This document shows positions 41,897 through 61,196 of a stretch of DNA of 64,000 nucleotides, one piece after another (the stretch's first letter is position 1; each line of letters starts with the position of its first letter). Location: the NCBI RefSeq assembly GCF_022385335.1, contig NZ_CP092431.1, forward strand, positions 5,580,001 to 5,644,000, given 5' to 3'. The position numbers and the translations under genes were made by a program. Below the pieces are notes generated by a model. The model made no database searches, was not told the origin of the DNA, and saw only the letters and a list, made by a program, of their open reading frames with translations. Source of the DNA: Streptomyces deccanensis. Lineage in GTDB: Bacteria > Actinomycetota > Actinomycetes > Streptomycetales > Streptomycetaceae.

Positions 41897-41966
41897 ACAA
41901 GGCCCCTTCACGCCGACCAGACTTCCCGGCACACCCCACGTCCCTTGACGTGTTCTTTGCACTCTA
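41897..41966 (-). ncRNA. structured 5' leader element, copy 1 (long form)
   Basis: Reading the minus strand: -10 TAGAGT (41966-41961), hairpin CACGTC-AAGG-GACGTG (41952-41937), then the core GCCGGGAAGTCTGGTCGGC (41930-41912), then a GGGC/GCCC pair. Thirty bases separate -10 and core, exactly as in copy 2. Forty-six bases later the 49-aa gene starts. See copies at 50751, 52248, 52748 and 61159. Confidence 0.6.
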
Positions 41967-42329
41967 TCTGCTGCCGGCGCCCCCAAACAGCCCAGCAGGA
42001 ACGGTGTGGGCCATGGCCCCGTATGCATGCTCGCCCCCGGCCGGTCCGCCTGGCGATCATGCGCGACAGCCCGCGACGCCGTGTGCGATCACAGCAAGGC
42101 CGCTACCCGCAGCGACTCCATCCGCCCGGACGCTTATGCGGCCATGCCCCCGTCCCCCACGGGGCGAGAGGTACACCGGCTGCGTGTCGGCGGCGCGGCA
42201 GCGGACTACACAGCGGTCGGCCCGGTGCGCGTCCGATACTCGCTTGTCGGCCCACGGTAGTGCTCCGGCTGATCGATACGGCCGCCGCGGGCCGACCCAG
42301 ACCAAGAAGCGGCTGTGCCCGCGAGTGCG
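41967..42329. other. intergenic, no supported gene
   Basis: About 360 bp between the leader promoter and the end of the SulP gene. No protein or RNA recognised. Confidence 0.4.
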
Positions 42330-43835
42330 TCAGTGGCTGGCTGACAGCTCGCCGCTGAGCTTGCCGTGCAGGTGGGCGCTGGGTTCGTTCAGGCCGGTGA
42401 TCTCGACCTGCTTGCCGCGCTGGGCGTACTTGGCCTCGATGGCGTCCAGGGCGGCGACCGAGGAGGCGTCCCAGACGTGGGCCGAGGACAGGTCGATGAC
42501 GACCCTCTTGGGGTCGGTGGCGTAGTCGAACTGGCCGACGAGGTCGTTGGAGGAGGCGAAGAACAGCTCGCCGGTGACCCGGTAAACGACCGTGCTGCCG
42601 TCCGGGTCGATGACGGAGGTGACCTCGGCGAGGTGCGCGACGCGCTTGGCGAAGACGACCATGGCGGTGACCGAGCCGACCACGACGCCGATGGCGAGGT
42701 TGTGTGTGGCGACCACGCACGCGACGGTGGTCACCATGACGGTGATCTCCCCGGCCGGCATCCGGCGAAGGGTCTTCGGGGCGATGGAGTGCCAGTCGAA
42801 CGTCGCGAACGACACCATGACCATGACCGCGACCAGGGCGGCCATGGGGATGTCCGAGACGACCGGGCCGAAGACGACGCACAGCACCATCAGGAACGCC
42901 CCGGCCAGGAACGTGGACAGTCGGGTGCGGGCGCCGGACACCTTCACGTTGATCATTGTCTGGCCGATCATGGCGCATCCGCCCATGCCGCCGAAGAAGC
43001 CGGTGACGATGTTGGCGATGCCCTGGCCGATGGACTCGCGCGTCTTGCTGGAGTGGGTGTCGGTGATGTCGTCGACCAGCTTGGCCGTCATCAGCGACTC
43101 CATCAGGCCCACCAGCGCCATCGCGAAGGCGTACGGGGCGATGGTGGTCAGCGTGTCCAGGGTGAAGGGCACGTCGGGCAGGCCGGGGACCGGCAGGGAG
43201 GATGGCAGGGCGCCCTTGTCGCCGACGGTCGGCACCGCGACGGCCGCGCCGACGGTGATCACGGTCAGGATGACGATGGAGACCAGCGGTGCCGGGATGA
43301 CCGTGGTGACCTTCGGAAAGAGCACCATCAGTGCCAGGCCGGCCGCGATCAGCGGGTAGACCGGCCACGGCACGCTCGTCATCTCCGGGACCTGGGCCAT
43401 GAAGATCAGGATGGCGAGGGAGTTGACGAATCCGACCATCACGCTGCGGGGGATGAACCGCATCAGCTTGGCCACCCCGAGTGCCCCGAGGATCACCTGG
43501 AAGACCCCGGCGAGGATGACCGCTGCGACGAGGTAGCCCAGGCCGTGCTCGCGGTTCAGAGGTGCGATCACGAGGGCGACGGCGCCGGTGGCGGCGGAGA
43601 TCATGGCCCGGCGCCCGCCGACGACGGCGATGGTGACGGCCATGGTGAAGGAGGCGAACAGGCCGATGGCCGGGTCGACACCAGCGATGATGGAAAAGGA
43701 GATCGCCTCGGGGATCAGCGCGAGCGCGACTACCAGGCCGGCCAGTACCTCGGTGCGCCAGACCTTCGGATCACGCAGCCAGTCCGGTTTGAGGCCGTTC
43801 AGCCGCGCGGCGGGAGACAGTACGGAAGAAGACAA
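42330..43835 (-). CDS. SulP-family anion transporter with C-terminal STAS domain
   Basis: About 501 residues. SulP membrane domain starting WRTEVLAGLVVALALIPEAI and FSIIAGVDPAIGLFASF, with some 12 helices, then a STAS domain (VVYRVTGELFFASSNDLVGQ, VIDLSSAHVWDASSVAALDAIE). Family members carry sulfate, bicarbonate, chloride or other anions; residues deciding substrate cannot be judged here. The frame is open to a GTG at 43979, but homology begins near residue 50 of that form, so I use TTG 43835; neither has a strong ribosome site. Divergent from a MerR gene, with a long palindrome between. Confidence 0.87.
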   Translation of the reverse strand: MSSSVLSPAARLNGLKPDWLRDPKVWRTEVLAGLVVALALIPEAISFSIIAGVDPAIGLFASFTMAVTIAVVGGRRAMISAATGAVALVIAPLNREHGLGYLVAAVILAGVFQVILGALGVAKLMRFIPRSVMVGFVNSLAILIFMAQVPEMTSVPWPVYPLIAAGLALMVLFPKVTTVIPAPLVSIVILTVITVGAAVAVPTVGDKGALPSSLPVPGLPDVPFTLDTLTTIAPYAFAMALVGLMESLMTAKLVDDITDTHSSKTRESIGQGIANIVTGFFGGMGGCAMIGQTMINVKVSGARTRLSTFLAGAFLMVLCVVFGPVVSDIPMAALVAVMVMVSFATFDWHSIAPKTLRRMPAGEITVMVTTVACVVATHNLAIGVVVGSVTAMVVFAKRVAHLAEVTSVIDPDGSTVVYRVTGELFFASSNDLVGQFDYATDPKRVVIDLSSAHVWDASSVAALDAIEAKYAQRGKQVEITGLNEPSAHLHGKLSGELSASH

Positions 43836-44182
43836 CGAAGCAGTTACCTGTCGTGCTCGGGCACATCCCTGGGACAAGCCGGGGCGCGCGGAAGACGGCG
43901 AGGAAGGCCGGGGCCGGCGTTCCGGGGTCGGCCCGTTTTCGGGCCGGAAGTCGAGGAGAGCCGACGGCGTCGCGATCACGTGCGTCAGGCTCTGGTCAGG
44001 GGCGAAGGGTCACGGCGGACAGGCGGCGGCGCCAGGCACCACGGACTCGCGCACGCGTTTCTCCTGCAAGACTCGGATTCTTCACCGGGGGCGGCATCGG
44101 CCCCGACACGGAGACGGCCGGGCTGGAAACCCGCACCGCAGACGAGGAAGTGACGGCGCTCAGGTCGAGCCTCCGACGGAGA

Positions 44183-44206
44183 CTCTACCCTAACGTTAGA
44201 GTAGAG
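44183..44206. promoter_or_regulatory. MerR-type operator
   Basis: A 24-bp palindrome with one mismatched pair: outer arms CTCTAC and GTAGAG around the perfect centre CTAACGTTAG (44190-44199). Located between SulP and the MerR gene, in the size range of MerR operators that span a long promoter spacer. Probably controls one or both genes. Confidence 0.7.
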
Positions 44207-44263
44207 ATCGGCGGCTGGATGGGACGCAGCGCCGTCGACAACGAGAGAGGCCAGGTCGGGGAC

Positions 44264-44680
44264 GTGGACGGCAAGCACATGCAGATCGGTGAGGTCGCCG
44301 CGCGAACCGAGCTGTCCCTGCGCACCATCCGACACTACGAGGAGACCGGCCTCGTCGCCCCCTCGGCCCGCTCCCAGGGCGGCTTCCGCCTCTACACCGA
44401 GGCCGACGTCGCCCGCCTGATGGTCATCCGCCGCATGAAGCCCCTCGGCTTCACCCTCGACGAGATGCGCGCCCTGCTGGAGGCCACCGACCGCCTCGAC
44501 TCCGGCAAGGAACTGCGACCCGAAGAGCGCGAAGAACTCCTGGACCGGCTGCGGGGCTTCGAAGAGGCCGCGCAGCAGCGCGTGGCCGACCTGCGCACCC
44601 AGCTGGCCCGGGCGGAGGAGTTCGCGGCCACGCTGCGCCGGCGCCTCCCGCGGACCGCCGCGCCGGTCCAGACCCCGTAA
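44264..44680 (+). CDS. MerR-family transcriptional regulator
   Basis: 138 residues. HMQIGEVAARTELSLRTIRHYEETGLV is the MerR helix-turn-helix (given in outline), followed by GGFRLYTEADVARLMVIRRM and LGFTLDEMRALLEATDRL, then a coiled-coil (EERE...DLRTQLARAEEFAATLRRR). No Cys pair near the C-terminus, so it is not a classic metal sensor. GTG 44264 or ATG 44279 can be the start. Adjacent palindrome and divergent SulP suggest it controls the transporter. Confidence 0.85.
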   Translation: MDGKHMQIGEVAARTELSLRTIRHYEETGLVAPSARSQGGFRLYTEADVARLMVIRRMKPLGFTLDEMRALLEATDRLDSGKELRPEEREELLDRLRGFEEAAQQRVADLRTQLARAEEFAATLRRRLPRTAAPVQTP

Positions 44681-45139
44681 CCGATCGGAATCGAGCAGGG
44701 CTCGGCTATCACCCCCCGCCACTCGCCATCCTCGTCATCAGTTCGTCGCCCCGCCCCCCACGGAACGTGGTCGAGAAGCTGGGCGAGCTTGGCTCACAGG
44801 ATGGAGATGGCCGTTCGGCGGACCGTCGGCCCACCAGGAGACCGGTGCCCAAACCCGTGGCTGAGGACCGGGCAGCCGGGCCGCCACCGGATCCCGCCAC
44901 GTTCAGCGCGCGGTCTCGCTGAGCGTGAGAACACACGGAACGGCAAAGGAGCCAGGTCCGCTGCGGCCATCGTTGATGGCTCAGCAGCTCCGGCAGCTCC
45001 AGCCGCTCCGGGGCGCCGTCCGCCTGCGGATCATAAGATGAGCCTCACAATCCGGATCTGATCTGGGCGCTCGTCCGGGCGGCCCCCGCACGCGAGCCAC
45101 AGAGACCAACGCTCACGCCGACAGAGGAGGGGGACAGCC
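44681..45139. other. intergenic, no supported gene
   Basis: 460 bp upstream of the RCK_C/antiporter pair. I looked for a ydaO-type c-di-AMP riboswitch because of the downstream genes and did not see its conserved core. No gene recognised. Confidence 0.4.
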
Positions 45140-45625
45140 ATGGGCGCGCCACGCCTGAGCAGCACACCGTTGCCGGGAATCGGTGTCCGCTACGACCTGA
45201 CAACACGGGAGCACCGCCGTCTCTCCGTGGTCGCCCATCGGGACGGGCCGCGCACGATCAGCGCGTACCGGGAAGACGACCCCGACGCGTGTGCCCTGTC
45301 CGTACGGCTGACCGCCGAGGAGGCGGCCACCCTCATCGACGCGCTGATGCCCGCCCACCACAACCCCAACCTGCTGTCCACCACCGGCCTGGGGCTTGTG
45401 GCCGAGCGCATCGAACTGACCGCCACATCGCGCTGGAACGGGCGCCTGCTGGGCGAGACCCGGATGCGCACGGAGACCGGCGCCTCGATCGTGGCCGTGC
45501 TGCGCCGGGCCGAGGCCATTCCCTCCCCCACCCCCGACTTCCGGCTCGCCGGCGGTGACACCCTCATCGTCATCGGTACCCGCGAAGGCGTGGAGATCGC
45601 CGCCGCGGTACTCGGGCGGGAGTAA
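45140..45625 (+). CDS. RCK_C (TrkA-C) regulatory subunit, CpeA-like
   Basis: 161 residues. The N-terminal 80 form a small domain (IGVRYDLTTREHRRLSVVAHRDG, CALSVRLTAEEAATLIDAL) and the C-terminal 75 an RCK_C domain (TSRWNGRLLGETRMRTETGAS, IVAVLRRAEAIPSPTPDF, GDTLIVIGTREGVE), here quoted in parts. In Streptomyces, RCK_C proteins of this plan (CpeA) bind c-di-AMP and act on a partner cation/proton antiporter. That partner type is the next gene, 6 bp away. ATG 45140, GGAGGGGG upstream. Confidence 0.85.
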   Translation: MGAPRLSSTPLPGIGVRYDLTTREHRRLSVVAHRDGPRTISAYREDDPDACALSVRLTAEEAATLIDALMPAHHNPNLLSTTGLGLVAERIELTATSRWNGRLLGETRMRTETGASIVAVLRRAEAIPSPTPDFRLAGGDTLIVIGTREGVEIAAAVLGRE

Positions 45626-45631
45626 CCCGTC

Positions 45632-46885
45632 ATGCACTCCTCCGCTGTCTTCCTGATCGAGTTCGGCTGCATCATCCTGGTTCTCGGACTGCTCGGCCGG
45701 TTCGCCGGGCGTTTCCGGTTCTCCCCGATTCCGCTGTACCTGCTGGCCGGACTCGCCTTCGGCAACGGTGGGCTGCTGCCGCTGGGTTCCAGCGAGGAGT
45801 TCGTGGCCATCGGCGCCGAGATCGGCGTCATCCTGCTGCTGCTCATGCTGGGCCTGGAGTACACGGCCAGCGACCTGGTCACCAACCTCAAGACCCACTA
45901 CCCCGCCGGTCTCGTCGACGCCCTCCTCAACGCCCTGCCCGGCGCGGCACTCGCGCTCCTGCTGGGCTGGGGACCGGTCGCCGCCGTCGTCCTGGCCGGC
46001 GTCACCTGGGTCTCCTCCTCCGGCGTCATCGCCAAGGTCCTCGGCGACCTGGGCCGCCTGGGCAACCGCGAAACCCCGACCGTCCTGAGCATCCTCGTCC
46101 TCGAAGACCTCTCCATGGCGGTCTACCTGCCGATCCTCACGGCCCTGCTGGCCGGGACCGGCCTGGCGTCAGGCAGCGTCACCCTCGCCATCGCCCTCGG
46201 CGCAGCCGCCCTCGTTCTGGTCCTCGCGGTCCGCTACGGCCGCCACATCTCCCGCTTCGTCTCCAGCGACGACCCCGAGAAGCTACTCCTCGTGGTCCTG
46301 GGCCTGACCCTGCTGATCGCCGGGCTCGCCCAGCAGCTGAATGTGTCCGCCGCCGTGGGTGCCTTCCTCGTCGGCATCGCGCTGTCCGGCGAGGTCGCCG
46401 ACGGCGCGCACAGTCTTCTTGCCCCGCTGCGGGACCTGTTCGCCGCCGTGTTCTTCGTCTTCTTCGGCCTGAACACCGACCCCGCCAGCATCCCGCCCGT
46501 CCTCCTGCCCGCCCTCGCCCTGGCCGCCGTCACCGCCTGCACGAAGATCGCCACCGGCTACTGGGCCGCCAAGCGGGCCGGCATCGCCACCAAGGGCCGC
46601 TGGCGAGCCGGCGGCGCCCTCGTCGCGCGCGGCGAGTTCTCCATCGTGATCGCCGGACTCGCCGTCGCCGCCGGCGTCGAACCCTCCCTCGGCCCGCTGG
46701 CCACCGCCTACGTCCTGATCCTCGTCCTCCTCGGACCCCTCACCGCCCGCTACACCGAGCCCCTGGCCACCCGCCTGCTCAGGCATCACCGCCCGCAACC
46801 CGCCCCGAAGCCCAACGACACCACACCGCCGCCGGCGGACGCATACGAGACCATCAGCGATCAGGACGCCGTCGGCCACGCATAA
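45632..46885 (+). CDS. CPA2-family cation/proton antiporter, CpeB-like
   Basis: 417 residues, about 12 helices, Kef/KhtU type. LLLLLMLGLEYTASDL is the family's helix-4 region, ILVLEDLSMAVYLPIL carries the acidic pair for transport, and VFFVFFGLNTDPASIPP and GALVARGEFSIVIAGLAVAAG are conserved. No RCK domain within the protein; the separate RCK_C protein upstream supplies it. Likely exports K+ or Na+ in exchange for protons under nucleotide control. A hydrophilic tail of 35 residues ends it. Confidence 0.9.
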   Translation: MHSSAVFLIEFGCIILVLGLLGRFAGRFRFSPIPLYLLAGLAFGNGGLLPLGSSEEFVAIGAEIGVILLLLMLGLEYTASDLVTNLKTHYPAGLVDALLNALPGAALALLLGWGPVAAVVLAGVTWVSSSGVIAKVLGDLGRLGNRETPTVLSILVLEDLSMAVYLPILTALLAGTGLASGSVTLAIALGAAALVLVLAVRYGRHISRFVSSDDPEKLLLVVLGLTLLIAGLAQQLNVSAAVGAFLVGIALSGEVADGAHSLLAPLRDLFAAVFFVFFGLNTDPASIPPVLLPALALAAVTACTKIATGYWAAKRAGIATKGRWRAGGALVARGEFSIVIAGLAVAAGVEPSLGPLATAYVLILVLLGPLTARYTEPLATRLLRHHRPQPAPKPNDTTPPPADAYETISDQDAVGHA

Positions 46886-47024
46886 CTGATCGCGCGGGAC
46901 CTGGACCCAGGGCCAGGAGCGAATGGTCCTCGACTCGTGAGGAGCTCGTAGACCGGATAAGCGGCGTCGCGAATGTTGAGGCGAGGAAAAATCCGCCACC
47001 CCGACCCGTACCGCTCAGCGGGGC

Positions 47025-47030
47025 TACCCT
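47025..47030 (+). promoter_or_regulatory. -10 hexamer for a leaderless transcript
   Basis: TACCCT, six bases (GCCGAC), then the GTG start at 47037; no ribosome site. Same geometry as at 9381, 14579 and 19414. Confidence 0.5.
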
Positions 47031-47036
47031 GCCGAC

Positions 47037-47918
47037 GTGCCCTCCGTCTATCGCAACGCCAAGAGTCGCCAGCGGGTGCGGGATTGGTGTCTCGAACGGC
47101 TCGGTGAGTGGGGTGTGCCGCACCAGCGCCATGAGATCCCCACGACCGCCGGGGTCACCAGCGTCATCACCATGGGCCCTGCGCCTGCGCCCGCCGCGCC
47201 GACCGTGGTGCTGGTTCCCGGCACGAACACCAACGGTGCCCTCTACCGGCACGTCTCCGAGGCGCTGGCGGCATGCTGGTCCACCGTGGTTCTCGACGTG
47301 CCAGGGCAGCCGGGTCTGAGCGCCGATGTGCGTCCGCGGCGCGGTCGGTCCGCCTGGTACGGGCAGTGGCTCACCGAGGCGCTGGAACAAGTGGTGCCGG
47401 GACCGGCCGTCGTCGTCGGGCACTCGCTGGGCGGTGCCATCGTGCTCGCCTCCGACTCTCCGCACATCACCGGGCGGGTGCTGCTGTCCAGCGCCGGACT
47501 GGTGCGGCTGCTGGTCCCTCCGACCGTGGTGGCGGCCACCGTGCCGTGGCTGGCTCGGCCGACAACACCGCGGGCGGCCCGGGTACTGCGCCGGATGGTG
47601 GCGCCCGGCGGACGGGTGCCGGACGACCTCGCGGAGTGGATGACCGTGGTCGCCCGTTGCTGCCATAGTAGTCTCGCCCCGGCCCCGCTCCCCCCACGGC
47701 TGCTGGCCGAGCGCAGGTCGGTGCCGTGCGTAGTGGCCACCGGCCGGCATGACGTCTTCCTGCCGCCGCAACGCGTGGCATCGGCCGCGCAGCGGCACCT
47801 GGGCGCCAGACTGCACGTCCTTGAGCGCTCGGGGCACCTGTTGCTGGACGAGTCGCGTGAGGAGATCATCACGCTGGTGGCCCAAGCCCTGGGCACGACA
47901 CCGCGGGACACCGCATAG
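47037..47918 (+). CDS. alpha/beta hydrolase
   Basis: 293 residues. Oxyanion region VVLVPGTNTNGALY, nucleophile elbow VVVGHSLGGAIVLA (Ser), acid in VVATGRHDVFLPP and His in LERSGHLLLDES: complete triad. Soluble, no signal peptide, no DNA-binding domain, so distinct from the two fusions at 9 and 14 kb. Substrate unknown. GTG 47037 as start, apparently leaderless. The 327 bp that follow contain no supported gene. Confidence 0.82.
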   Translation: MPSVYRNAKSRQRVRDWCLERLGEWGVPHQRHEIPTTAGVTSVITMGPAPAPAAPTVVLVPGTNTNGALYRHVSEALAACWSTVVLDVPGQPGLSADVRPRRGRSAWYGQWLTEALEQVVPGPAVVVGHSLGGAIVLASDSPHITGRVLLSSAGLVRLLVPPTVVAATVPWLARPTTPRAARVLRRMVAPGGRVPDDLAEWMTVVARCCHSSLAPAPLPPRLLAERRSVPCVVATGRHDVFLPPQRVASAAQRHLGARLHVLERSGHLLLDESREEIITLVAQALGTTPRDTA

Positions 47919-48245
47919 GTGGTGTAGCCAGCCGTATACGCACGTACCCCGTAGATGGAGTACGAGTGTGAGCGTAGTGTCGCCGTCGGCGATGGAATCC
48001 GCTGGTAGGGCGCGTGCGCCAGCTCTCACTCGGGCTGCGAGAACCAGAATTCCTGTGCCGTCCAGGCTGCAGCGCTCGCGGACTGCGACGTCGCGCGTTC
48101 GGCGGATGGGCAGGAGTCGACGCAGGCCCGGCGCTGCCGGGAGCGTGAGGGCCATGATGAAGTCGCCGCCAGGGTGCCCTCGGCGTTCAGTACCTGCTTT
48201 GCAGTCTGGTGGCTTGATCGCGCCGGATCGGGGCAGGCGGGCTCT

Positions 48246-48560
48246 GTGTCATCTGCGCCGTCCGACCTGCTCGTGCGGGTTCGGCATGCCTTGATCCAAG
48301 CAGGGTTTTATCTGGTAGGGGAGGGTGCGGATGGCGGGAGGCCGGGGCTTGTGGTGACGGAGGTGCCGGCCGGGGTGCTGGTGAGGTGGACGGCCTCGGA
48401 CGGATTCGCTTCGCTGGCGAAGGACCAGCGCGGAGCATCTGGCGACAGCATGCAGTCGGTCGTGCAGGCTGCGGTTTCTGGCCTGCTCGTTCAGCTGGGA
48501 CACACCGTCACGGAACCGTCAGGCGGCGGTGACCTGCTGGTTTTGGCCACCGCCGAGTGA
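48246..48560 (+). CDS. hypothetical protein, 104 aa
   Basis: Begins SSAPSDLLVRVRHALIQAGFYLVGEG and continues with a plausible alpha/beta pattern (GLVVTEVPAGVLVRWTASD, SVVQAAVSGLLVQLGHTVTE, DLLVLATAE). Looks like a small soluble protein; family unknown to me. GTG 48246 chosen because sequence upstream in frame is not protein-like. Confidence 0.55.
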   Translation: MSSAPSDLLVRVRHALIQAGFYLVGEGADGGRPGLVVTEVPAGVLVRWTASDGFASLAKDQRGASGDSMQSVVQAAVSGLLVQLGHTVTEPSGGGDLLVLATAE

Positions 48561-48639
48561 TGAAACCACTGACAGCTTGTGCGGGACGGTGGCAGAGTGG
48601 TGCCCACCGCGACGGTGGGTCCGGGACCGAGGTGGTGAC

Positions 48640-48960
48640 CCTCCCCTTGAGAATGATCAGTCCCGGTCGCTTCGTGGGATGCCGCTTGGCCGCTTTTGCG
48701 GGAACCTCTGCGGGTAATCCGCCTGGCCATCAGCGTGATCGCGGCCCAGGTGATCAGTGAATCCGAATGCTGGATCAGCCATTCGTAGTCCCCGCGCGTG
48801 CCAGCGGTCGTGCATGATCCAGGCCAGGGAACGCTCGACCATCCAGCGCTGGGGCAGGATGACGAATCCAGGGGATGTTCTTCGGTCGGCTGACCGTTTT
48901 CGACGTCAGCCCGAGGCGCTTCCTTGCCAGGCGATTCCGGGATGAAACATCTGGCGAAAC
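48640..48960 (-). pseudogene. C-terminal relic of an IS5-family transposase
   Basis: Minus-strand pieces in three frames give the end of a DDE transposase: RLGLTSKTVSRPKNIP, then VILPQRWMVERSLAWIMHDR, then DYEWLIQHSDSLITWAAITL and MARRITRRGS. The RW.VER..AW and ITWAAI signatures are those of IS5-group enzymes. Two frameshifts and no N-terminal half, so it is dead. No inverted repeats identified. Confidence 0.8.
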
Positions 48961-49128
48961 AACCTCCCAGGGGCCGCCCGTGGCCTCGGTGAAGCCGCGG
49001 GGGGCGACGGCAAGACGCATCTGACGGGCCGGACACCTGCTCGTTTCGGAGAGAAGACGTGCGACGGCTTTTGCCCGTGGCCGACTGGCCCCGCGATCGG
49101 AGCGTCACGACGAGTCGGCAAGGGATAC

Positions 49129-49338
49129 TCACGGCCTGGTCTGGGGACTGTCCCGGCGGATCCGATACAGGCGATGCAGGCTGAGTGCGACCAGCGCGCC
49201 CGCGATCATCGACCACGTAGGCGAAGCGCCATGTCTCGTTAGCGCTATTACCTTCACCAGCAAAGACGTCGAAGCCAGTACACCGAGCCATCCCATCGCG
49301 ATGTCGACCGCACCGCCTCGACTGAACAGATTCTGCAT
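49129..49338 (-). CDS. small two-helix membrane protein
   Basis: 69 residues: AVDIAMGWLGVLASTSLLVK and SPTWSMIAGALVALSLHRLY, then a basic tail. It lies downstream of nhaA on the same strand, with 66 bp between. Unknown function. Confidence 0.5.
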   Translation of the reverse strand: MQNLFSRGGAVDIAMGWLGVLASTSLLVKVIALTRHGASPTWSMIAGALVALSLHRLYRIRRDSPQTRP

Positions 49339-49404
49339 CCTTGGCCCCCTTTTTCCTGCAACTCATGTCATCAAAAGCGTCGGCGAGTGCGAGAGGTAGG
49401 CAGT

Positions 49405-50721: not shown

Positions 50722-50750
50722 CCGGGAGAACCTCCACAGCATCGGATTGT

Positions 50751-50826
50751 GGGCACACGTGCCCGTTCGACGCCGACCAGACTTCCCGGCACACCGCGCG
50801 TCGATTGACGCGTTCTTTACACAGTA
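50751..50826 (-). ncRNA. structured 5' leader element, copy 2 (long form), before nhaA
   Basis: Minus strand: -10 TACTGT (50826-50821), hairpin CGCGTC-AATC-GACGCG (50812-50797), core GCCGGGAAGTCTGGTCGGC (50790-50772), then hairpin GGGCAC-GT-GTGCCC (50764-50751). Compared with copy 1, the first hairpin has changed bases on both arms while keeping pairing (ACG versus GCG arms), so it covaries. Spacing from -10 to core is again 30. Confidence 0.65.
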
Positions 50827-52247: not shown

Positions 52248-52297
52248 TACGCTGCCCCTAGGTGTGCCGGGAAGTCTGGTCGGCGGACATATCCGCC
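52248..52297 (+). ncRNA. structured 5' leader element, copy 3 (short form), before STAS gene
   Basis: -10 TACGCT (52248-52253), 12 bases, core GCCGGGAAGTCTGGTCGGC (52266-52284), then GGCGGA-CATA-TCCGCC (52282-52297), a perfect hairpin that uses the 3' end of the core, so it competes with pairing inside the core. GGAGG of the STAS gene follows directly. Confidence 0.6.
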
Positions 52298-52313
52298 TGC
52301 CCTGGAGGCTTCG

Positions 52314-52652: not shown

Positions 52653-52747
52653 AGCGTGTCCCGCGCAGCGCACCATGCCGGATCGCGGCAATGTCGGACG
52701 GCCGTCAGTGCGCGGAAAGAGCCTGTCAGCTCGGCGTAAAGAGCGTG

Positions 52748-52784
52748 TAGGGTTCCCCGCAGTGTGCCGGGAAGTCTGGTCGGC
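52748..52784 (+). ncRNA. structured 5' leader element, copy 4 (short form), before CPA1 antiporter
   Basis: -10 TAGGGT (52748-52753), 12 bases, core GCCGGGAAGTCTGGTCGGC (52766-52784). Same spacing as copy 3. The antiporter start codon is 41 bp beyond the core. Confidence 0.6.
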
Positions 52785-52825
52785 GGTTGTGGGAGAACTC
52801 TCTTCGCCGATCGGGGGTCGTGGTC

Positions 52826-54067: not shown

Positions 54068-54217
54068 ACGCGGTCGTGTCGGCCACTCGTGGAAACGCCG
54101 TACCGCGTGTTACGGCGTCGGAGGAGCCGGGAGACCGGCACGGAGGCGTCAGGAGGGTGACGCCGGAGCCTGACCAGACCTGCTCAGCCGACGGATACAG
54201 CAGGAGGTCCACTCTCG

Positions 54218-54631
54218 ATGACCGGATTCTGGAACGTCGACGCCCCTGACGGTCAGCCGGTACGACTCTCCTTCGTCTCCACCGCTGCTCTGGGTGGTAC
54301 GGCCGAGTTCATCGTGCATGGCCCGTGCGGCCGTGTTGTCGGCCGACTTCGTTTCCGTGCCTGCGGAGCGTGCCGTACGGGGCGCATCCTGGACCTCTGG
54401 ATCTGCGATACGTGGCAGCGCCAGGGACTGGGGCGAGAACTGGTGTGTTCCCTGTTCGCCCACCGTCGCGGCTACCGGTGGAATACCACCCTGCAGAGCC
54501 GCCAGGGGCGGTCCTTCTTTGCGGCGATGACGCGGGAGACCGCACTGAGCCTGCCCCACGGCGGCCCGTTATGTCCCCATCTCATGGGATGGTTCCGGCG
54601 TATCTGGCGCCGCCTGCTGCACGCCTGCTGA
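54218..54631 (+). CDS. GNAT-like N-acetyltransferase
   Basis: 137 residues. The GNAT core is seen in VVGRLRFRACGACRTGRILDLWI, then the acetyl-CoA loop WQRQGLGRELVCSLFAHRRG. The region before it (VRLSFVSTAALGGTAEFIVHG) fits the first strands. Substrate unknown. ATG 54218 with AGGAGG. Monocistronic. Confidence 0.7.
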   Translation: MTGFWNVDAPDGQPVRLSFVSTAALGGTAEFIVHGPCGRVVGRLRFRACGACRTGRILDLWICDTWQRQGLGRELVCSLFAHRRGYRWNTTLQSRQGRSFFAAMTRETALSLPHGGPLCPHLMGWFRRIWRRLLHAC

Positions 54632-54866
54632 AAGCGGGGTTCAGCGCGGCCGGGGGCACGTCATCACGTCTTCGTGGCCGGGATGTCGGCCAATTCCTGA
54701 CAGCAACCGGCAGGCGGACCGTAGTGAACACTGCCGGAACCTGGCAGTGCGACCGCTATAGCTGTGCGCGCACCATGAAAGATGGGGAGCTGGTCTGGGC
54801 AGTGGGCCCATCTCTCCCCAGCAGGCTGGAAGCGAGTTGCCGGTGCTCACGAAGGGGTGTCGGCCG

Positions 54867-55448
54867 ATGGCGACGGCGCGGTGTGCCAGGGTGCGGTGGT
54901 GGCGGTGGCGGCGTAATCCGCTGCTGCGGCGCAGCGACGTCATCGAAGCCTGGGTCATCCTCGCTGGATGGGTGCTGGCCCTGGTGGGCGGCCTGTTCGC
55001 GGGGCTGGCGGCGGCAGACGCGGTCGAGCGGTCCGCGGACCGGCAGCGGGCGGAGCGCCGCACGGTGTCGGCCGTACTCGTCGAGGACGCCGCGGGCAAG
55101 GTGCCCGCCAGGGCAGCGGGCGATCCGCGGGTGTGGGCGACGGTCCGCTGGACCGCGCCGGACGGTTCGACTCGCACCGGCGAGGCCAGGGTCTCGGCGA
55201 CGAGTCCCGCCGGCAACCGGGTCGCGATATGGATCGACAAGGACGGTCACCTCACTGCCGAACCCCTGACCGACGAGCAGGCACGATCCCATGCGGCTGC
55301 CGCAGGATTGCTGGTCGCGGCAGGTGCGGGCGGCATCGCCCTGGCCGCTGTCTCCGTTATACGCATGTACCTGAGCCAGCGGCGTTTGGAGCAGTGGGCC
55401 GTGGAGTGGGAGCGGATCGACACGCGGTGGGGGAGAAAGGCCGGCTGA
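54867..55448 (+). CDS. Rv1733c-like two-helix membrane protein
   Basis: 193 residues. The signature RRNPLLRRSDVIEAWVILAG near residue 20 begins helix 1 (VLALVGGLFAGLAAADAV); an outside domain of about 100 residues (RTVSAVLVEDAAG, WATVRWTAPDGSTRTGEARV, GNRVAIWIDKDGHLT) follows, then helix 2 (AAAAGLLVAAGAGGIALAAV) and a short cytoplasmic end. This is the Rv1733c family common in Streptomyces and mycobacteria, function unknown, often induced in dormancy. ATG 54867 with AAGGGG. Confidence 0.82.
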   Translation: MATARCARVRWWRWRRNPLLRRSDVIEAWVILAGWVLALVGGLFAGLAAADAVERSADRQRAERRTVSAVLVEDAAGKVPARAAGDPRVWATVRWTAPDGSTRTGEARVSATSPAGNRVAIWIDKDGHLTAEPLTDEQARSHAAAAGLLVAAGAGGIALAAVSVIRMYLSQRRLEQWAVEWERIDTRWGRKAG

Positions 55449-55513
55449 CCCGACCAGTTGATCAGCGAGACCCAGGGGCGACGAAGTCCGACCCCCCGTC
55501 CGGCTGGCAAGGG

Positions 55514-55870
55514 TCATTGCCGACCGCTGATGCCCTGTGCCTGATCAACAGCCTGTGCTCGCATTGCCCGCCGGTAGAACCACTCGCCCAGCTGCGATCC
55601 GGCCACGAGCCCTCCCGCGAACATCAGCAGCCCACCCTGCACCACGGAAGCGAAAAAACTGGCGTCCTCGGTGGCGGCCAGGTCGCTCCACCGTAGAAGC
55701 GGGCCGGTCAGCCCGCCGAGCCAGATCACCAGCAGGGCGACGCCCCGGACGCGGATGGCCCATGGGGTCGTACGGCTGCGGATTCGTTTCGGTGCCCAGC
55801 CCCGCAGCGAGGCGATGGCCACGGGCAGCGCGAAGGCTGACCAGCCGACCAGCCAGAGCCACAGAAACAC
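55514..55870 (-). CDS. small integral membrane protein downstream of flotillin
   Basis: 118 residues with three helices (FLWLWLVGWSAFALPVAIAS, VRGVALLVIWLGGLTGPLL, FASVVQGGLLMFAGGLVAG). GTG 55870, AGGAGG nine nt upstream. It follows the flotillin gene by 75 bp on the same strand and may be the third gene of that operon. Unknown function. Confidence 0.65.
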   Translation of the reverse strand: MFLWLWLVGWSAFALPVAIASLRGWAPKRIRSRTTPWAIRVRGVALLVIWLGGLTGPLLRWSDLAATEDASFFASVVQGGLLMFAGGLVAGSQLGEWFYRRAMRAQAVDQAQGISGRQ

Positions 55871-55945
55871 CCCTCGTACCTCCTCGCGTACGAGCCCGGG
55901 GGGTTCCAGGACCGCCCGGGCTCGCTTCTCCGGTCGATGCCGGCG

Positions 55946-57379
55946 TCAGCCGGTGATCTCGACCTTCCCGTTGGCCCCGGCGGGTGCCGTCGTCGCGGGC
56001 TGCGCGCCGCCGACCCGGCCGGTGATGCCCTTCAGCAGCTCGGCGAGGTCGACTCCGGTGGTGGAACCGAGCAGTTCGAGGCCCTGGGCGACGTTGTCGG
56101 CGACCGTGCGCGAGAGCTGACTGGCGCCGTCGGTGGAGATGACCGTCATCTTGTCGATCGCGCTGAGCGGCTCGGACGCCTTGGCGACGACCTGCGGCAG
56201 CACCTCCACCAGCATCTGCAGGACGGCGGCGTCGCCGTACTGGGCGAAGGCGTCGGCCTTCTTCTGCATGGCGTCGGCCTCGGCGGCACCCTTGGCGCCG
56301 ATGGCGGCGGCCTCCGCCTCGCCCTCGAGGCGGACGGCGTCGGCGAGCGCGGCGCGCTGCGCCTTCTCGCCCTCACCGGTCAGCCTGGCCCGCTCGGCGG
56401 TTGCCTCGGCCTCCTTGACCAGCGCGATCCGGCGGGCCTCGGCTTCCTGCTCGGCCTGGTAGCGGGCGGCGTCGGCGGGCTTGCGGACCTTGGTGTCCAG
56501 CTCCCGGTCGGTCAGCGCGGCCTGGCGTTCGGCGACCTTCTCCTGCTCGCTGAGCACTTCCTGCTGCCGGGCTGCCTCGGCGAGTGGTCCGGCTGCGGCG
56601 GCGCGGGCGGCGGCCTCGTCGGTCTCGGCCTTGATCTCGGCCTGCTTCAGCGCGAAGGTCCGCTGGGCGATGGCTATTTCCTCCTCCGCCTTCAGCCGGG
56701 CCTGCTCGGCGGCGCGCCGCGCGACGGCCTCGGCGATGTCGGCCTCCTGCTTGGCTCGGGCGGCCTCCGGGCGGCCGAGGTCCTCCAGGTAGGAGCCCTC
56801 GGTGGTGATGTCCTGGATCTGGAAGGCGTCCAACACCAGGCCCTGCCCGGACAGGCTCGCCTCGGCCTCCTCGGCGACCTGACTGGCGAACGCGGCCCGG
56901 TCACGAATGATGTCCTCCACCGACATCCGACCGACGATGGCCCGCAGTGCGCCGGAGAGAACTTCCTGGGTGAAGCCGACGATGCCGTCCTGCTGCATCA
57001 GGAACCGCTGGGCCGCGGCGCGGATCGAGTCCTCGGTGCCGCCGACCTTGACGATGGCGACGCCTTCGAGGTTCGCCTTGACACCGCGCAAGGTGACCGC
57101 GCCGCGTACCGCGATCGGGATGTGCCGCGAGGACAGGTCGAGGGTGAACTTCTGCTGCACGAACGGCACGACGAACACTCCGCCGCCGACCACGACCTTC
57201 TGCCCGCTGTTGTCGGTGAACACCCGCCCGGTCTCCGGGTCGGTGGCCTGCTTGCCGCGCCGGCCGGTGACGATGAACGCCTCGCTCGGGCCCGCCACCT
57301 TGTAGCGGGTGACCACGACGAGGCCGAGCAGGACAAGGAGTACGACGACTCCTATCACGGCGAAGACGACTGGACTCAT
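55946..57379 (-). CDS. flotillin (SPFH) family protein
   Basis: 477 residues. N-terminal helix (VVFAVIGVVVLLVLLGLVVV), SPFH domain (PSEAFIVTGRRGKQATDPETG, PFVQQKFTLDLSSRHIPIAV, GVKANLEGVAIVKVGGTEDS), then a long Ala/Glu coiled-coil with repeated EAEA motifs (about 190-380) and a conserved C-terminal end (AVLQMLVEVLPQVVAKASEPL). It is a true flotillin/YuaG type, different from the stomatin-type SPFH at 39.4 kb. Forms membrane microdomains. ATG 57379 with GAGGGG upstream. The NfeD partner precedes it in the same operon. Confidence 0.92.
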   Translation of the reverse strand: MSPVVFAVIGVVVLLVLLGLVVVTRYKVAGPSEAFIVTGRRGKQATDPETGRVFTDNSGQKVVVGGGVFVVPFVQQKFTLDLSSRHIPIAVRGAVTLRGVKANLEGVAIVKVGGTEDSIRAAAQRFLMQQDGIVGFTQEVLSGALRAIVGRMSVEDIIRDRAAFASQVAEEAEASLSGQGLVLDAFQIQDITTEGSYLEDLGRPEAARAKQEADIAEAVARRAAEQARLKAEEEIAIAQRTFALKQAEIKAETDEAAARAAAAGPLAEAARQQEVLSEQEKVAERQAALTDRELDTKVRKPADAARYQAEQEAEARRIALVKEAEATAERARLTGEGEKAQRAALADAVRLEGEAEAAAIGAKGAAEADAMQKKADAFAQYGDAAVLQMLVEVLPQVVAKASEPLSAIDKMTVISTDGASQLSRTVADNVAQGLELLGSTTGVDLAELLKGITGRVGGAQPATTAPAGANGKVEITG

Positions 57380-57488
57380 GATGTCTTTCCCCTCAGCCCT
57401 CCCAGGGGACGGCAGATCGATACGGCTCAAGTAGATGAAAGGGCGGCGCCGGTGCAACGGCGCCCGATGTGAAGAGCGGCGCCGCGGG

Positions 57489-58004
57489 TCAGCGTTCGAC
57501 CGGGCGTACGGAGACCGCTGTCTGCGACAGCGCCTCCTCCACCCAGATCTCGGCGCCTCGCGGCACCGGGCTTGGGCTCTTCGCCGCGAGCTTCACCGGT
57601 TGCCCGGCCAGGTGGACCAGCACCTCGCCGTAGCCGCCGACCGGAATGGCCGTCACCACGGAACCCGCGGCGCCGATCAGGTCGTCGCCGCGCGGGGCAG
57701 CGCTTGACCGGTCGTTCAACAGGGCCCGGCTGAGGCGGTAGGCGAGCCAGCCCGTGGCAGCTCCGGCGGGCACGCCGACCGCGCTGGCGCCGACCGCGCC
57801 GAGCCCGGTGGTGCCCAAGACGATCGCGCCGGAGAAGCCGAGCATGGACACGAACCCGGCGATGACCGGAAGCGACAGCCAGCCGTCGAAAAGACCGTCG
57901 AGCGCGTCAACCCCGCCGAAGAGGCCCTCGAGAACACCGTCGAAGACGAGGGACAGAGCGAGGAGTACGACTCCTGCGATGCCGAGACCCAGAAACCAGG
58001 TCAT
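57489..58004 (-). CDS. NfeD-like (YuaF-type) membrane protein
   Basis: 171 residues. Helices at 1-20 (TWFLGLGIAGVVLLALSLVF), 45-90 (LPVIAGFVSMLGFSGAIVLG, GLGAVGASAVGVPAGAATGW), then an OB-fold domain (DDLIGAAGSVVTAIPVGGYG, VLVHLAGQPVKLAAKS, GAEIWVEEALSQTAVSV). Upstream gene of the flotillin pair, as yuaF is of yuaG. ATG 58004. A palindrome similar to the one before the PucR gene lies about 75 bp upstream. Confidence 0.85.
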   Translation of the reverse strand: MTWFLGLGIAGVVLLALSLVFDGVLEGLFGGVDALDGLFDGWLSLPVIAGFVSMLGFSGAIVLGTTGLGAVGASAVGVPAGAATGWLAYRLSRALLNDRSSAAPRGDDLIGAAGSVVTAIPVGGYGEVLVHLAGQPVKLAAKSPSPVPRGAEIWVEEALSQTAVSVRPVER

Positions 58005-58079
58005 CCGCGTTCACCGCCCCTCTCCCACAGTCCCCCCGCTGGTGACCGCCATACTCACACGTAGACCCCGCCGAAAACA

Positions 58080-58096
58080 CTGCCTGGTTCCGGCAA
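58080..58096. promoter_or_regulatory. TTGCC-N7-GGCAA-like palindrome before nfeD-flotillin
   Basis: CTGCCTGGTTCCGGCAA, one arm mismatch from the palindrome at 52112 upstream of PucR. On the operon strand it overlaps a -10-like TAGAGA. Candidate PucR site. Confidence 0.45.
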
Positions 58097-58269
58097 TCTC
58101 TACGCTCTCTTGATGTCGACCTCCCCGCAGCCTGGCCGGAGTGCGGTGGGGACCCGGCCGACGGCGGCCCCTGAGGACAGCCGTGTCCAGACCAGTTGCT
58201 CGCGTACCACCGCCCCTGTTCATCCGAGCAGCCGCACCGACCGAGTCGGGAAGCGCCACGGGGCCAGGT

Positions 58270-60211
58270 CTACGGCGTGGCGGGGTCGGCCGGCCTGGGA
58301 TGGCGGCCGAGGAGTTCGGCGAGCCCTTGCCGGGTCGTCGCCAGCACGACCCGGTCCTCGGGCCGCAGGACGTATCCGGGGTGCAGTTCCCAGAGCAGCC
58401 CGGGAGGCCGGTCGTCGCCGTCGCCCGGATGAGCCGCGGCGAGGTCGGGGCGCCGGTCGGCGGGCGCGGCGGCATCCAGGGCCAGAACGCGCCAGGCCCC
58501 GGGGCGGAAGGCTTCGGCGACCGTGCGGCCTTCCAATTGCGGGTGGCCTGCGACGACGAGGGCCGCGACGAGGAGCACCTTGCGTTCGACGGGAATGGCG
58601 CCGAGGATCTGGCGGCCCATCATCGCGCCGGCGAACGCGGGGGCCGCGAGGCTGGAGACACTGCGGCTGCGGGTGAGGGCCTGCGGGTGGGCGGCGCGCA
58701 GGGTGCGGTAGACGGCGGTGGCGAAGCCGTCGTCGTACAGGCGCAGCGCGACACGCAGGTCGGGTTTGACGGAGCGTGCGTACAGGGCGGCTTCGAGGTT
58801 GGTGGTGTCGGAGCTGGTCAGGGCGAGGAGGGCGTGCGCGCGGTGGATCTTGGCGGACTCCAGGACGCCCTCCTCGACGACGTCCTCGATGACGGTGGGG
58901 ATGCGCAGGCGGCGTGCCAGCGGGATGCTGCGTGCCTCGGGGTCGGACTCCACACAGACGACGGGGATGTCGAGTTCCTTCAGCCGGGCCAGTACGCGGT
59001 TCCGATCTTGCCGAGACCGAGGAGGACGACGTGCCCGGACAGGCCGCGTGGTGGGCGGCGCAGGGCGGTGGAGCTGCGGAATGCGCCCAGGCCCTCCAGT
59101 ACGGCCGCGGTCATCACCGCCAGCAGCAGCAACCCGGCCAGCCCGGAGAGGAGTTGCATGATCTGACGGCTCAGCGGCTCGCCGAGCGCCGGGTCGTCGA
59201 TGGCGAACAGGTCGAGCAGAGTGAGGTGCGTGGCGTGCAGCAGGCTGTCGTCGGTGGTCAGCCAGTAGGCGACGGCGAGGCCGAAGACGCAGGCGAGCAG
59301 GCCGAACAGCGAACCGCGCAGTCGACGCGAGAACAACTGTCCGAGCAGTGAGCCCCGGTTGGCCAGCCGCCCGCTGGGCAGGAGCGGCCCGCTGTACGAG
59401 ACGGCCTCCAGTACAACCGTGCCGTGTCCGGTCGCCGCGGCAACCGCCTCCTCGCTGGGCAGAAGCTGGGGCGCCTCCGTCCCGCTGCGGTCCGAACCCT
59501 CAGCCCCCGCAGGATCGTTGGCCGTCGCCGAGAGCAGTGCCAGGGTGCACAGGCCAGGGTCGAAAGCCTCACCGCGACGCGTCGGAGTGCGTTCGACCGC
59601 TCGCAGCAGCAGCCCATCCGCCTGTACCACCTTGCTGGTGCCCGCGACGGCCGTGGCGGCCAGCGCCGGTGCGGCGGTGTCCGCGTCGGACAGGACGGTA
59701 GTGGAGGTGTCCAGAGCCACCGGGTCCAGCCCCGGTGAGGCGACAATGGCGGCCTGGTCCAGCAGCTCCTCCAACTGCTGGCCGAGCTTGCGGTTGTACA
59801 GCCGGATCACCAGCCGCACCTGTGGGTTGAGGCGCCGGGCGATCAATGCGGCGCGGATGTTCACCTCGTCGTCCTCATGCACCAGAGCGACCGCGGTGGC
59901 CCGAGCGACACCGGCTGCGGCTAATACCTCGTCGGTGAGCTCCGACGCTTCCAGCACATGCCCGTTGTCGGCGGCGTCCGGTGCGGTGCCCGTGGCCCGC
60001 GTCATCACCGAGGACACGCGTCCGAAGAGTGCCGTCGCCCGGCGCCGGGCGACGTGCCCGTCGCGACACCGCTCCGGGTGGGAGCGACGAGCGTGACCTG
60101 CTCGCGGTAGACGTCGCGCAGTTCGTCGGACAGCCGGTGGGCCAGCCCGTCATCACCGCAGACGATCATGTGCCCGCTGCGTGGCGGCAGCTGGCGTGGG
60201 AGGGACGACAT
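58270..60211 (-). pseudogene. CASTOR/POLLUX-like ion-channel protein with two frameshifts
   Basis: Three minus-strand frames give one protein of about 640 residues. 60211-60050: SGHMIVCGDDGLAHRLSDEL, a Rossmann NAD-binding start. 60017-58980: VLEASELTDEVLAAAGV, NIRAALIARRLNPQVRLVIR, two helices (SLFGLLACVFGLAVAYWLTT; LLSGLAGLLLLAVMTAAVLE), then GHVVLLGLGKIGT. 58953-58270: VESDPEARSIPLARRLRIPT, LLALTSSDTTNLEAALYARS and the RCK_C end. Restoring one C near 59000 rejoins LGKIGTRVLARLKEL with VVCVESD; another shift lies near 60040-60075. In the family, TrkA-N proteins of this type are putative cation channels. Either recently inactivated or affected by base-calling errors. Confidence 0.8.
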
Positions 60212-60477
60212 GGAAGATCACTTTGCCGCAGTTCGACAGCTGCTTCCATGCCTACGCAACAGATGCCGCAGGTGGGGGCCGCGAGGCGGAGAGTGGATCG
60301 GCAGTTCCGCATGATGGCTCTGCCTCCGCGCAGCGGGTGGTGCGGCGGACCGTTGTTTCGACCCGGCCGGCTGCGCCGCTTCGCACGCCGACGCCTGCGG
60401 CGCATCAGCACGAGCCGCCGTTGAGCCCCGGTCATGGGCAACCCCGACCGCAAGGCCGACCGCAATGACGCCGCCGC

Positions 60478-60825
60478 TCAGACGCCGAAGCCGGCTTCCG
60501 CGTCGACGACGGTGTCATGTATCCGAAGGACTTGATCAGCCCCCGTCATCTGAAGGACCCGCTGGAGGGGACCGGGGACACTCGCCAGTACCAGCACGGC
60601 GCCGCTCGCCGCCGCCTGCCGCCACGCTCCGAGCAGCACGCTCAGTCCGGCCGAGTCGCAGAACGAGACGTCGGACAGGTCCAGGACGATGAAGCGATCG
60701 CCCCGCCCCAACAGCTCCCTGAACTGTGCGCGGAACGCCGAGTCGGTCACATAGTCCATGTCGCCGCTGACCCTCGCTACCAGGCAGCGACCCGAGGTGG
60801 TCATCTCGACCGAAGGGTCAGTCAC
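60478..60825 (-). CDS. anti-sigma-factor antagonist (STAS domain)
   Basis: 115 residues. Canonical STAS: CLVARVSGDMDYVTDSAFRA, FIVLDLSDVSFCDSAGLSVLL with the phosphorylatable Ser of DSAGL, and AVLVLASVPGPLQRVLQMTG. In the family it binds RsbW-like kinases and releases a sigma factor when dephosphorylated. Possible partners in the window are the ATPase at 6.5 kb and the phosphatase at 35 kb; unproven. GTG 60825, AGGAGAG upstream. Confidence 0.88.
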   Translation of the reverse strand: MTDPSVEMTTSGRCLVARVSGDMDYVTDSAFRAQFRELLGRGDRFIVLDLSDVSFCDSAGLSVLLGAWRQAAASGAVLVLASVPGPLQRVLQMTGADQVLRIHDTVVDAEAGFGV

Positions 60826-60936
60826 AAGCGCTCTCCTAGCCGTTCTGGTAGGGAGAAGACGGCGGAATCGTGAGGGGAGCCCATGCTTCGCGGCTGAGGA
60901 GAACAGCGACTTCCGCGGGCATCGCCGAAGGATGTG

Positions 60937-61128
60937 TCACGGACCGCCTCGATTCCACCGGCCGGCCAGCAGTGCGATCCCAGCAGCCGCCAGGCTCAGG
61001 ATGCCGAACAGCAGAACCGGAAGCCCGGGTCCCGGCAGCACCCACATCACCGCACCGCAGAGAGTGAGCAACGCGCCGATGACCGTGAGTACACCTACGA
61101 GGGGGCGTCCCGTGTGAGGTCTGGACAT
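60937..61128 (-). CDS. small membrane protein behind leader element
   Basis: 63 residues: VGVLTVIGALLTLCGAVMWV and GLPVLLFGILSLAAAGIALL, with a PGPG turn between them, resembling the small PGPGxP two-helix proteins (DUF/PGPGW type) of actinobacteria. ATG 61128 with CTGGAG upstream. Preceded by the short form of the GCCGGGAAG leader. Confidence 0.65.
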   Translation of the reverse strand: MSRPHTGRPLVGVLTVIGALLTLCGAVMWVLPGPGLPVLLFGILSLAAAGIALLAGRWNRGGP

Positions 61129-61158
61129 TTGGCGGCTCCAGGGAAGGGGGCAGTCAAT

Positions 61159-61196
61159 GCCGACCAGGCTTCCCGGCTCACCTGTGGCGCATTGTA
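61159..61196 (-). ncRNA. structured 5' leader element, copy 5 (short form)
   Basis: Minus strand: -10 TACAAT (61196-61191), 13 bases, core GCCGGGAAGCCTGGTCGGC (61177-61159), start codon 30 bp further on. One base differs in the loop (T to C) and one just upstream (GTGTGCC to GTGAGCC); all positions proposed to pair are kept. Confidence 0.55.

Follow-up and report, generated by a model that had tools for sequence, protein, structure and literature searches.

A conserved 25-nt leader element before cation antiporter genes of Actinomycetota, a candidate ion-responsive riboswitch

A recurrent leader element in Streptomyces deccanensis

The window analysed here is a 64,000-nucleotide (nt) stretch of Streptomyces deccanensis DNA (NCBI RefSeq assembly GCF_022385335.1, contig NZ_CP092431.1, positions 5,580,001 to 5,644,000, forward strand). 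Within it, the leaders of a pair of short open reading frames (ORFs), of nhaA, of a STAS-domain gene, of a CPA1-type antiporter gene and of a gene for a PGPG-type membrane protein each carry one copy of the same short element (copies A to E, Table 1). A first-pass annotation of the window had proposed that this element is a cis-acting RNA shared by ion-homeostasis genes. We find that it is very probably a real cis-regulatory RNA of phylum-wide distribution, apparently undescribed within the literature that we could search.

The core of the element is a 19-mer, GCCGGGAAGYCTGGTCGGC. The window contains five exact copies, on the strands and at the positions given by the first-pass annotation; none was added when up to three mismatches were allowed, and shuffled sequences averaged 0.26 matches. 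The distance from the 19-mer to the start codon is 46 nt for copy A, 29 or 50 nt for B, 29 nt for C, 35 or 41 nt for D and 30 nt for E, bearing out the range of 29 to 50 nt noted earlier. As the annotation also held, each copy follows a TANNNT hexamer, at distances of 30, 30, 12, 12 and 13 nt for copies A to E. From sequence and predicted folds, the extra 18 nt of copies A and B form a hairpin, with one compensatory change between the two (CACGTC/GACGTG versus CGCGTC/GACGCG). The 19-mer stood as a conserved core, but the conserved unit proved larger than annotated, comprising GGNGN-GCCG-GGAAGNCUGGU-CGGC and a mostly purine nt 25.

Table 1. Copies of the element and associated structures, in window coordinates
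Feature	Position	Strand	Context or basis
Copy A, nt 1-25, GGTGT-GCCG-GGAAGTCTGGT-CGGC-G, U5.G25	41911..41935	-	Leader of two short ORFs, start codon 41865
Hairpin CACGTC-aagg-GACGTG, between TANNNT (41961-41966) and copy A	41937..41952	-	Sequence, predicted fold
Copy B, nt 1-25, U5.G25	50771..50795	-	Leader of nhaA; start 50742, or 50721 with GGAGG ahead
Hairpin CGCGTC-aatc-GACGCG, between TANNNT (50821-50826) and copy B	50797..50812	-	Sequence, predicted fold
Copy C, nt 1-25, U5.G25	52261..52285	+	Leader of STAS-domain gene (Pfam STAS), ATG 52314; TANNNT 52248-52253
Copy D, nt 1-25, begins AGTGT, U5.G25	52761..52785	+	Leader of CPA1-type antiporter, start 52820 or 52826; TANNNT 52748-52753
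Alternative helix in copy D leader, core 3' half UCUGGUCGGCG with downstream CGCCGAUCGGGGG	52775..52817	+	Predicted fold
Copy E, nt 1-25, GGTGA...CGGC-A, A5.A25, C at variable nt 15	61158..61182	-	Leader of 63-aa PGPG-type membrane protein, ATG 61128; TANNNT 61191-61196

The element is widespread in Actinomycetota

The description of a local, five-copy element was an underestimate. The 10.1-Mb home genome contains a sixth exact 19-mer (G000:C1:5846265-5846283, minus strand), about 205 kb beyond copy E and before a second nhaA. Allowing up to two mismatches over the whole genome added one further match, itself with two mismatches, and a reversed control pattern gave two matches. A covariance model returned the six exact copies and nothing else from this genome; the search used strict filters, by which weak matches may be lost.

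Beyond the home genome, a 24-nt version of the pattern (GGTGY added, up to three mismatches) matched 233 of 345 Actinomycetes genomes, including 33/33 Streptomyces, compared with 5/345 for the reversed control. A pattern leaving the stem free matched 102 of the 396 Actinomycetota genomes searched, against 4/396 for the control, some of these matches being due to chance. A covariance-model search, the kind of check that the first-pass annotation had suggested for Streptomyces genomes, gave matches in 100 of 148 Actinomycetes genomes. The value of 149/150 Streptomyces genomes at up to two mismatches is inflated by chance, as the reversed control also matched many of those genomes. A scan of a named collection yielded at least 119 loci. 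The titles listed included Streptomyces, Agromyces, Arthrobacter, Amycolatopsis, Nocardia, Mycolicibacterium, Frankia, Micromonospora and Glycomyces, along with Acidimicrobiaceae, Solirubrobacterales, two Chloroflexi bins and one Mesorhizobium. The Mesorhizobium match, with long open frames on both strands, is probably due to chance. One Chloroflexi match (L172) precedes a protein related to CPA antiporters, and the other (L104) is doubtful as a genuine copy.

In one Streptomyces (G067), with nine matches altogether, nhaA, STAS and CPA1 genes occur in two groups, and each gene has its own copy of the element (L266, L268). In another genome (G272, locus L270), three copies lie within about 9 kb of one contig, preceding a hydrolase-like ORF, a TrkH-looking ORF (both assigned by eye) and an ABC ATPase gene.

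Na+/H+ antiporter genes dominate downstream

A census of downstream genes started from 218 entries, which after removal of two end-truncated repeats gave 216 distinct copies. A gene on the sense side matched a first reference protein set for 160 of the 216, and a gene on the opposite side matched a larger reference set for five. The 160 matches were to NhaA (131), CPA antiporters (14), CBS-domain proteins (7), MrpA (5), ABC proteins (2) and NhaD (1). The ABC reference was a wrong-frame ORF; of the two loci, L060 is ABC by Pfam and L177 by eye. At six of the seven CBS loci (L040, L111, L126, L189, L198, L212) the CBS-domain gene is followed by a gene for a CitMHS-type transporter.

For the remaining 56 copies, the downstream genes of 44 were scanned with Pfam. 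Eleven encoded further ion transporters or related proteins (Na_H_Exchanger, 3; CitMHS, 2; P-type cation ATPase, 2; H_PPase, TrkH, TrkA_N and Na_Ca_ex, 1 each). The others included ABC (3), PPDK_N (3), alpha/beta hydrolase (3), STAS (2), DUF2254 (2), amino-acid permease (2, one below cut-off) and six single families (one below cut-off), and 12 of the 44 gave no Pfam match. Altogether, about 169 of the 216 distinct copies precede cation antiporters, pumps or channels. A later set, partly overlapping the first in genomes and copies, was similar in kind: 43 of 59 preceded NhaA, CPA or CBS-type genes, and 11 of 59 had no gene assignment. The association with ion-homeostasis genes reported by the first-pass annotation was thus borne out, with Na+/H+ antiporters dominating the list.

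Proteins of the PEP-utiliser/PPDK_N type follow the element at L137, L165 and L177, and alpha/beta hydrolases at L150, L159 and L196. These genes fit simple Na+ export poorly, and the element may have another role there.

The element lies just downstream of TANNNT boxes

In 120 of 213 copies a TANNNT hexamer ends 7 nt (92 copies) or 8 nt (28 copies) before GGNGN, compared with 1.3 per position in shuffled sequences; this profile left out L087, which has two of four pairs in the stem described below. The same spacing was seen in 34 of 50 further copies. This peak suggests that GGNGN lies at or within a few nucleotides of the transcription start, and we infer that the element is near the 5' end of the mRNA, as the first-pass annotation had argued from the window copies. 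The bias of genes to the sense side (160 versus 5 of 216) likewise places the element in sense-strand leaders.

Many Streptomyces nhaA leaders resemble copies A and B in having extra sequence or a hairpin between TANNNT and the core. Upstream of many Streptomyces nhaA copies there are also repeated GCGTCA/GTAAAG-like words, either between promoter and core or further upstream. A transcription factor might bind these words, GlnR for instance, in view of the nitrogen responses reported in PMC3087709.

Comparative evidence for an RNA structure

The element comprises GGNG, a pair formed by nt 5 with nt 25, a stem of four base pairs (S1, nt 6-9/21-24) and the nearly invariant 11-nt loop. Most loci were fetched with patterns that favour the exact stem, and only the stem-free sets inform on its variation. 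These sets comprise 151 copies, 21 retrieved with the stem wholly free and 130 with nt 7, 8, 22 and 23 free. S1 was fully paired in 150 of the 151, the sole exception being L087, and four of the 150 carried changes on both sides of the stem (TCCG/CGGA twice, GTCG/CGAC twice). Further two-sided variants, GCTG/CAGC and GTCG/CGAC, were found at L049 and L060.

Variants were also chosen by the 5' half of the stem, blind to the 3' half. Of 14 such variants, four were fully paired: L216 to L218, with GTCG/CGAC twice and TCCG/CGGA, and L221, with GGCG/CGCC, which is doubtful because it has no TANNNT box and lies in an open frame. None of the ten unpaired variants had TANNNT 6-8 nt ahead and nine lay inside an open frame of at least 150 codons; for these reasons we read them as chance matches.

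In a set of 57 sequences, 99.6% of S1 cells were paired and there were 10 two-sided changes over three pairs (counting the doubtful L221). None of 500 shuffles reached the observed values for pairing, two-sided changes or covariation, and 1 and 35 of 500 did so on two other measures; these statistics ignore the relatedness of the sequences. The set was drawn from 62 selected sequences by excluding L158, L219, L226, L227 and L229, and is enriched in variants, every stem variant having been kept. S1 therefore shows the compensatory changes characteristic of a cis-regulatory structured RNA.

The strongest covariation among the column pairs examined was between nt 5 and nt 25, with a mutual information of 0.473 against a maximum of 0.087 in 2000 shuffles (L219, L226, L227 and L229 excluded). 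Among 273 copies the pair was U.G in 125, C.A in 82, A.A in 18, U.A in 16 and another combination in 32. U.G or C.A thus accounted for 207 of 273, C-G occurred in two and G at nt 5 in none. In 50 further copies, C5 was accompanied by A25 in 17/17 and U5 by G25 in 32/33. These counts, and those of RCCC below, required at least three S1 pairs, a condition that can bias S1 counts and not those for nt 5/25. U.G and C.A+ wobbles are isosteric, and covariation between isosteric wobbles is not what a DNA-binding protein would select.

Among 99 leaders lacking RCC at +13 to +16, 27 had a hairpin with a stem of 6 bp or more that started no further than 5 nt from the core (4.5 in shuffled sequences), as did 12 of 114 leaders with RCC there (5.5 shuffled). 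The inserted hairpins are of unrelated sequence. RCCC itself is found at +13 to +16 in 81 of 223 copies (18.2 expected) and in 21 of the 50 new copies (3.7 expected). An RCC lying 13-16 nt after the core could pair with GGU of the loop (nt 18-20) as a pseudoknot; by eye, copies A and C are the only window copies with RCC in place. No convincing GGU variant, such as would reveal covariation of this pairing, was seen among the matches listed, for which the search patterns had fixed GGU or left few mismatches.

The first-pass annotation had made its proposal of a cis-acting RNA depend on covariation in homologs. Such covariation is present, in both the two-sided changes of S1 and the nt 5/25 wobble, and together with the inserted hairpins it supports an element acting as RNA. 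Two mutually exclusive folds had been envisaged, and the comparison upheld one of them, the outer GCCG/CGGC stem. The inner CCGG/CUGG hairpin is broken by the U6-A24 variants (L091, L095, L218) and by a loop variant with U17 changed to G (CGGG; L232, L233), in all of which the outer stem is kept, and we rejected it.

Predicted pairing of the core with the ribosome-binding region

Of 180 copies, 79 have CGACC, which is complementary to core nt 18-22, in the 60 nt that follow, compared with 38.5 expected. The scan has a background, in that core segments other than nt 18-22 reach high z-scores in control regions too (up to 5.2 downstream of position 70 and 6.1 upstream). In 12 aligned Streptomyces nhaA leaders the ribosome-binding site (RBS) region is nearly fixed, reading CCGACCGGAGGT in nine, and the CCGACCGGA within it can pair fully (with one G.U) with UCUGGUCGG of the core. 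In copy D the core is predicted to pair over the G-rich stretch before the start codon, the whole leader folding with a z-score of -3.79. By eye, a similar pairing partner is present in five of seven aligned relatives; L136 and L231 align poorly in this CPA1 leader alignment.

Pairing was predicted for 130 leaders in which a gene was assigned and a Shine-Dalgarno (SD) sequence could be recognised. Between core nt 14-24 and the leader as far as the SD it came to 0.58, compared with 0.34 when the core was shuffled and 0.30 when the linker was shuffled. The corresponding values for pairing of the SD itself with the core were 0.24, 0.13 and 0.09. This excess of predicted core-RBS pairing suggests an off state in which the core pairs with the ribosome-binding region.

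Comparison with known leader RNAs

The first-pass annotation could match the element to no named family, and our searches agree. Rfam 15 gave no gathering-score match in the window and, for the nhaA leader, no match at E-values up to 10. When ten loci were searched with an E-value limit of 5, six weak matches appeared; none reached the gathering score and none overlapped the element. The Na+-I model (RF03071, 'Sodium') had no match in the home genome and gave its control match in Lactococcus lactis; the Li+-I/nhaA-I model (RF03057) likewise had none, with its control match in Caulobacter vibrioides. Li+-II/nhaA-II had no gathering-score match in the window in the whole-Rfam scan, the presence of this family in the library being unconfirmed. 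A search of the open PMC literature for the letters of the motif matched only an unrelated mouse text. Searches of the open literature on riboswitches, nhaA, sodium, antiporters and actinobacteria found no description of the element among the titles listed, subscription papers being mostly outside their scope.

SAM-II and preQ1-II are pseudoknot riboswitches. If the loop GGU pairs with RCC, the present element would resemble them as a small H-type pseudoknot just before the SD; its sequence and gene set are unrelated to theirs, and its pseudoknot is a prediction.

Several described RNAs share its genomic setting. Na+-I (the DUF1646 motif, RF03071) is also a leader RNA before alkali-cation antiporters and related pumps, with a gene list alike in kind (kefB/napA-like antiporters, ATPase genes), but differs in having a 55-position model and two described stems, P1 and P2 (PMC9337991, in part). 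Li+-I/nhaA-I, its Na+-II variants and Li+-II/nhaA-II are also common before nhaA; by PMC9646797, Li+ activates expression through them, and Na+ does so through the variants. The element described here differs from them in its 4-bp stem, its 11-nt loop and its place at the presumed 5' end. The dauA motif is likewise a Streptomyces leader RNA before a STAS gene, and is described in extracts of PMC11109978 as a three-stem junction of Streptomyces species. By description it stands apart from our element, which has a single short stem and precedes many cation transporters.

A possible Na+-responsive translational switch, and alternatives

Our favoured reading, to which we give a probability of roughly 0.45, is that the element is a translational riboswitch-type leader of antiporter and other cation-homeostasis mRNAs in Actinomycetota, with Na+ as the best-guess ligand. 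That it is a riboswitch of some kind is probable; that Na+ is the ligand is more tentative, a little short of an even chance. In the absence of ligand, the 3' half of the core, UCUGGUCGG, would pair just before or over the SD, with CCGACCGGA as its partner in Streptomyces nhaA, CGCCGAUCGGGGG in CPA1 leaders and CGACC elsewhere, and translation would be held down. Na+ would stabilise S1 and its loop GGAAGNCUGGU, freeing the SD so that the exporter is made. S1 may be followed directly by a hairpin, and about half of the copies would add the putative RCC-loop pseudoknot. The element has the appearance of a switch for tuning the balance of sodium and pH.

Several observations weigh against this reading. 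Two apparently real leaders with TANNNT, L234 and L235, carry a C.A mismatch in S1, and RCC is missing from its position in about half of the copies and, by eye, in three of the five in the window. S1 has near-zero probability in free RNA (Vienna). Locking S1 lowered the mean predicted SD accessibility from 0.41 to 0.34 in the 130 leaders, and locking S1 with RCC held lowered it from 0.40 to 0.34 in 96, so that simple folding fails to show the SD being released. Apart from copy D, the window leaders fold no better or only slightly better than shuffles (z-scores of -1.50, 0.05, -0.63 and 0.23). PPDK_N proteins, hydrolases, DUF2254 proteins and a glycosyltransferase among the downstream genes fit Na+ poorly. 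Finally, nitrogen state acts by way of GlnR on the S. venezuelae orthologue of SCO3564. In PMC3087709 this orthologue was up 7.3-fold on nitrogen starvation and down 4.6-fold after ammonium, and was listed as non-responsive in a glnR mutant, suggesting that other controls act on such genes. The mismatches of L234 (nt 8/22) and L235 (nt 7/23) are of the same wobble kind as that favoured at nt 5/25.

The same RNA could instead be a riboswitch for another antiporter-coupled signal, such as protons or alkaline pH (perhaps through C.A+), Li+, K+ or a second messenger, which we regard as unlikely, though the strongest of the alternatives. The function of NhaA, Mrp and CPA antiporters extends from Na+ to pH, C.A+ wobbles are protonated, and K+-linked genes (TrkH, TrkA_N) are found downstream. 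Li+ riboswitches are known before nhaA (PMC9646797, in part). However, the proton-independent U.G is the commonest nt 5/25 pair (125 of 273), so that this pair alone is no pH sensor. Also against this reading, the c-di-AMP (ydaO) class is part of Rfam, no family of which reached the gathering score in the window. Slightly less likely again is a hairpin bound by a regulatory protein, or a 5'-end structure shielding the mRNA from nucleases, in which the loop GGAAGNCUGGU is recognised. A compact hairpin whose loop hardly varies, lying near the presumed 5' end of the mRNA, would suit such a role, and the weak predicted stability of S1 alone would fit the need for a partner. There is no known candidate protein, no search for one having been made, and the conserved nucleotides 5' of the stem, the wobble and the spaced downstream element exceed what a simple protein-binding hairpin needs.

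An operator in DNA for a transcription factor, overlapping the transcription start, would account for the place just after TANNNT and for the inverted repeat of the outer GCCG/CGGC. We consider it very improbable and rejected it. The U.G/C.A covariation at nt 5/25 makes no palindrome in DNA, hairpins of unrelated sequence are inserted on either side of the core, and the motif is asymmetric with its genes on the sense side (160 versus 5 of 216). Even among the window copies, the spacing from TANNNT to GGNGN takes values of 7, 8 or 25 nt. Five copies within 20 kb and the doubled nhaA-STAS-CPA1 group of G067 might arouse the suspicion of chance, or of a promoter-proximal repeat that was recently duplicated in one genome. 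The likelihood of this is negligible, as the searches above traced the element, its flanks unrelated, across Actinomycetes families and into further classes of the phylum.

Implications and remaining genes of the window

Na+-selective gene control in bacteria has been little explored, with one validated protein and one relatively rare riboswitch class according to the part of PMC9337991 that we draw on. If the Na+-responsive switch is real, this phylum of antibiotic producers would gain the general control of Na+/pH homeostasis that has so far been missing, and one that would span NhaA, Mrp, CPA and NhaD antiporters, before whose genes the element is found. Slightly more speculatively, it could represent an undescribed class of ion-responsive riboswitch, a 25-nt module at the exact 5' end of the mRNA built around an obligatory isosteric wobble (U.G or A+.C). 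Such a class would be among the smallest and possibly also among the most widespread, with common Na+/pH control of unrelated antiporter families throughout Actinomycetota.

The list of downstream genes could also aid the assignment of function to unnamed membrane proteins. In the window, the 63-aa membrane protein after copy E has no Pfam match. Copy A is followed by an ORF of 49 codons and then by one at L001 1039-1305 (minus strand) that encodes an 89-aa product, also without a Pfam match, and these small proteins might be ion-transport subunits.

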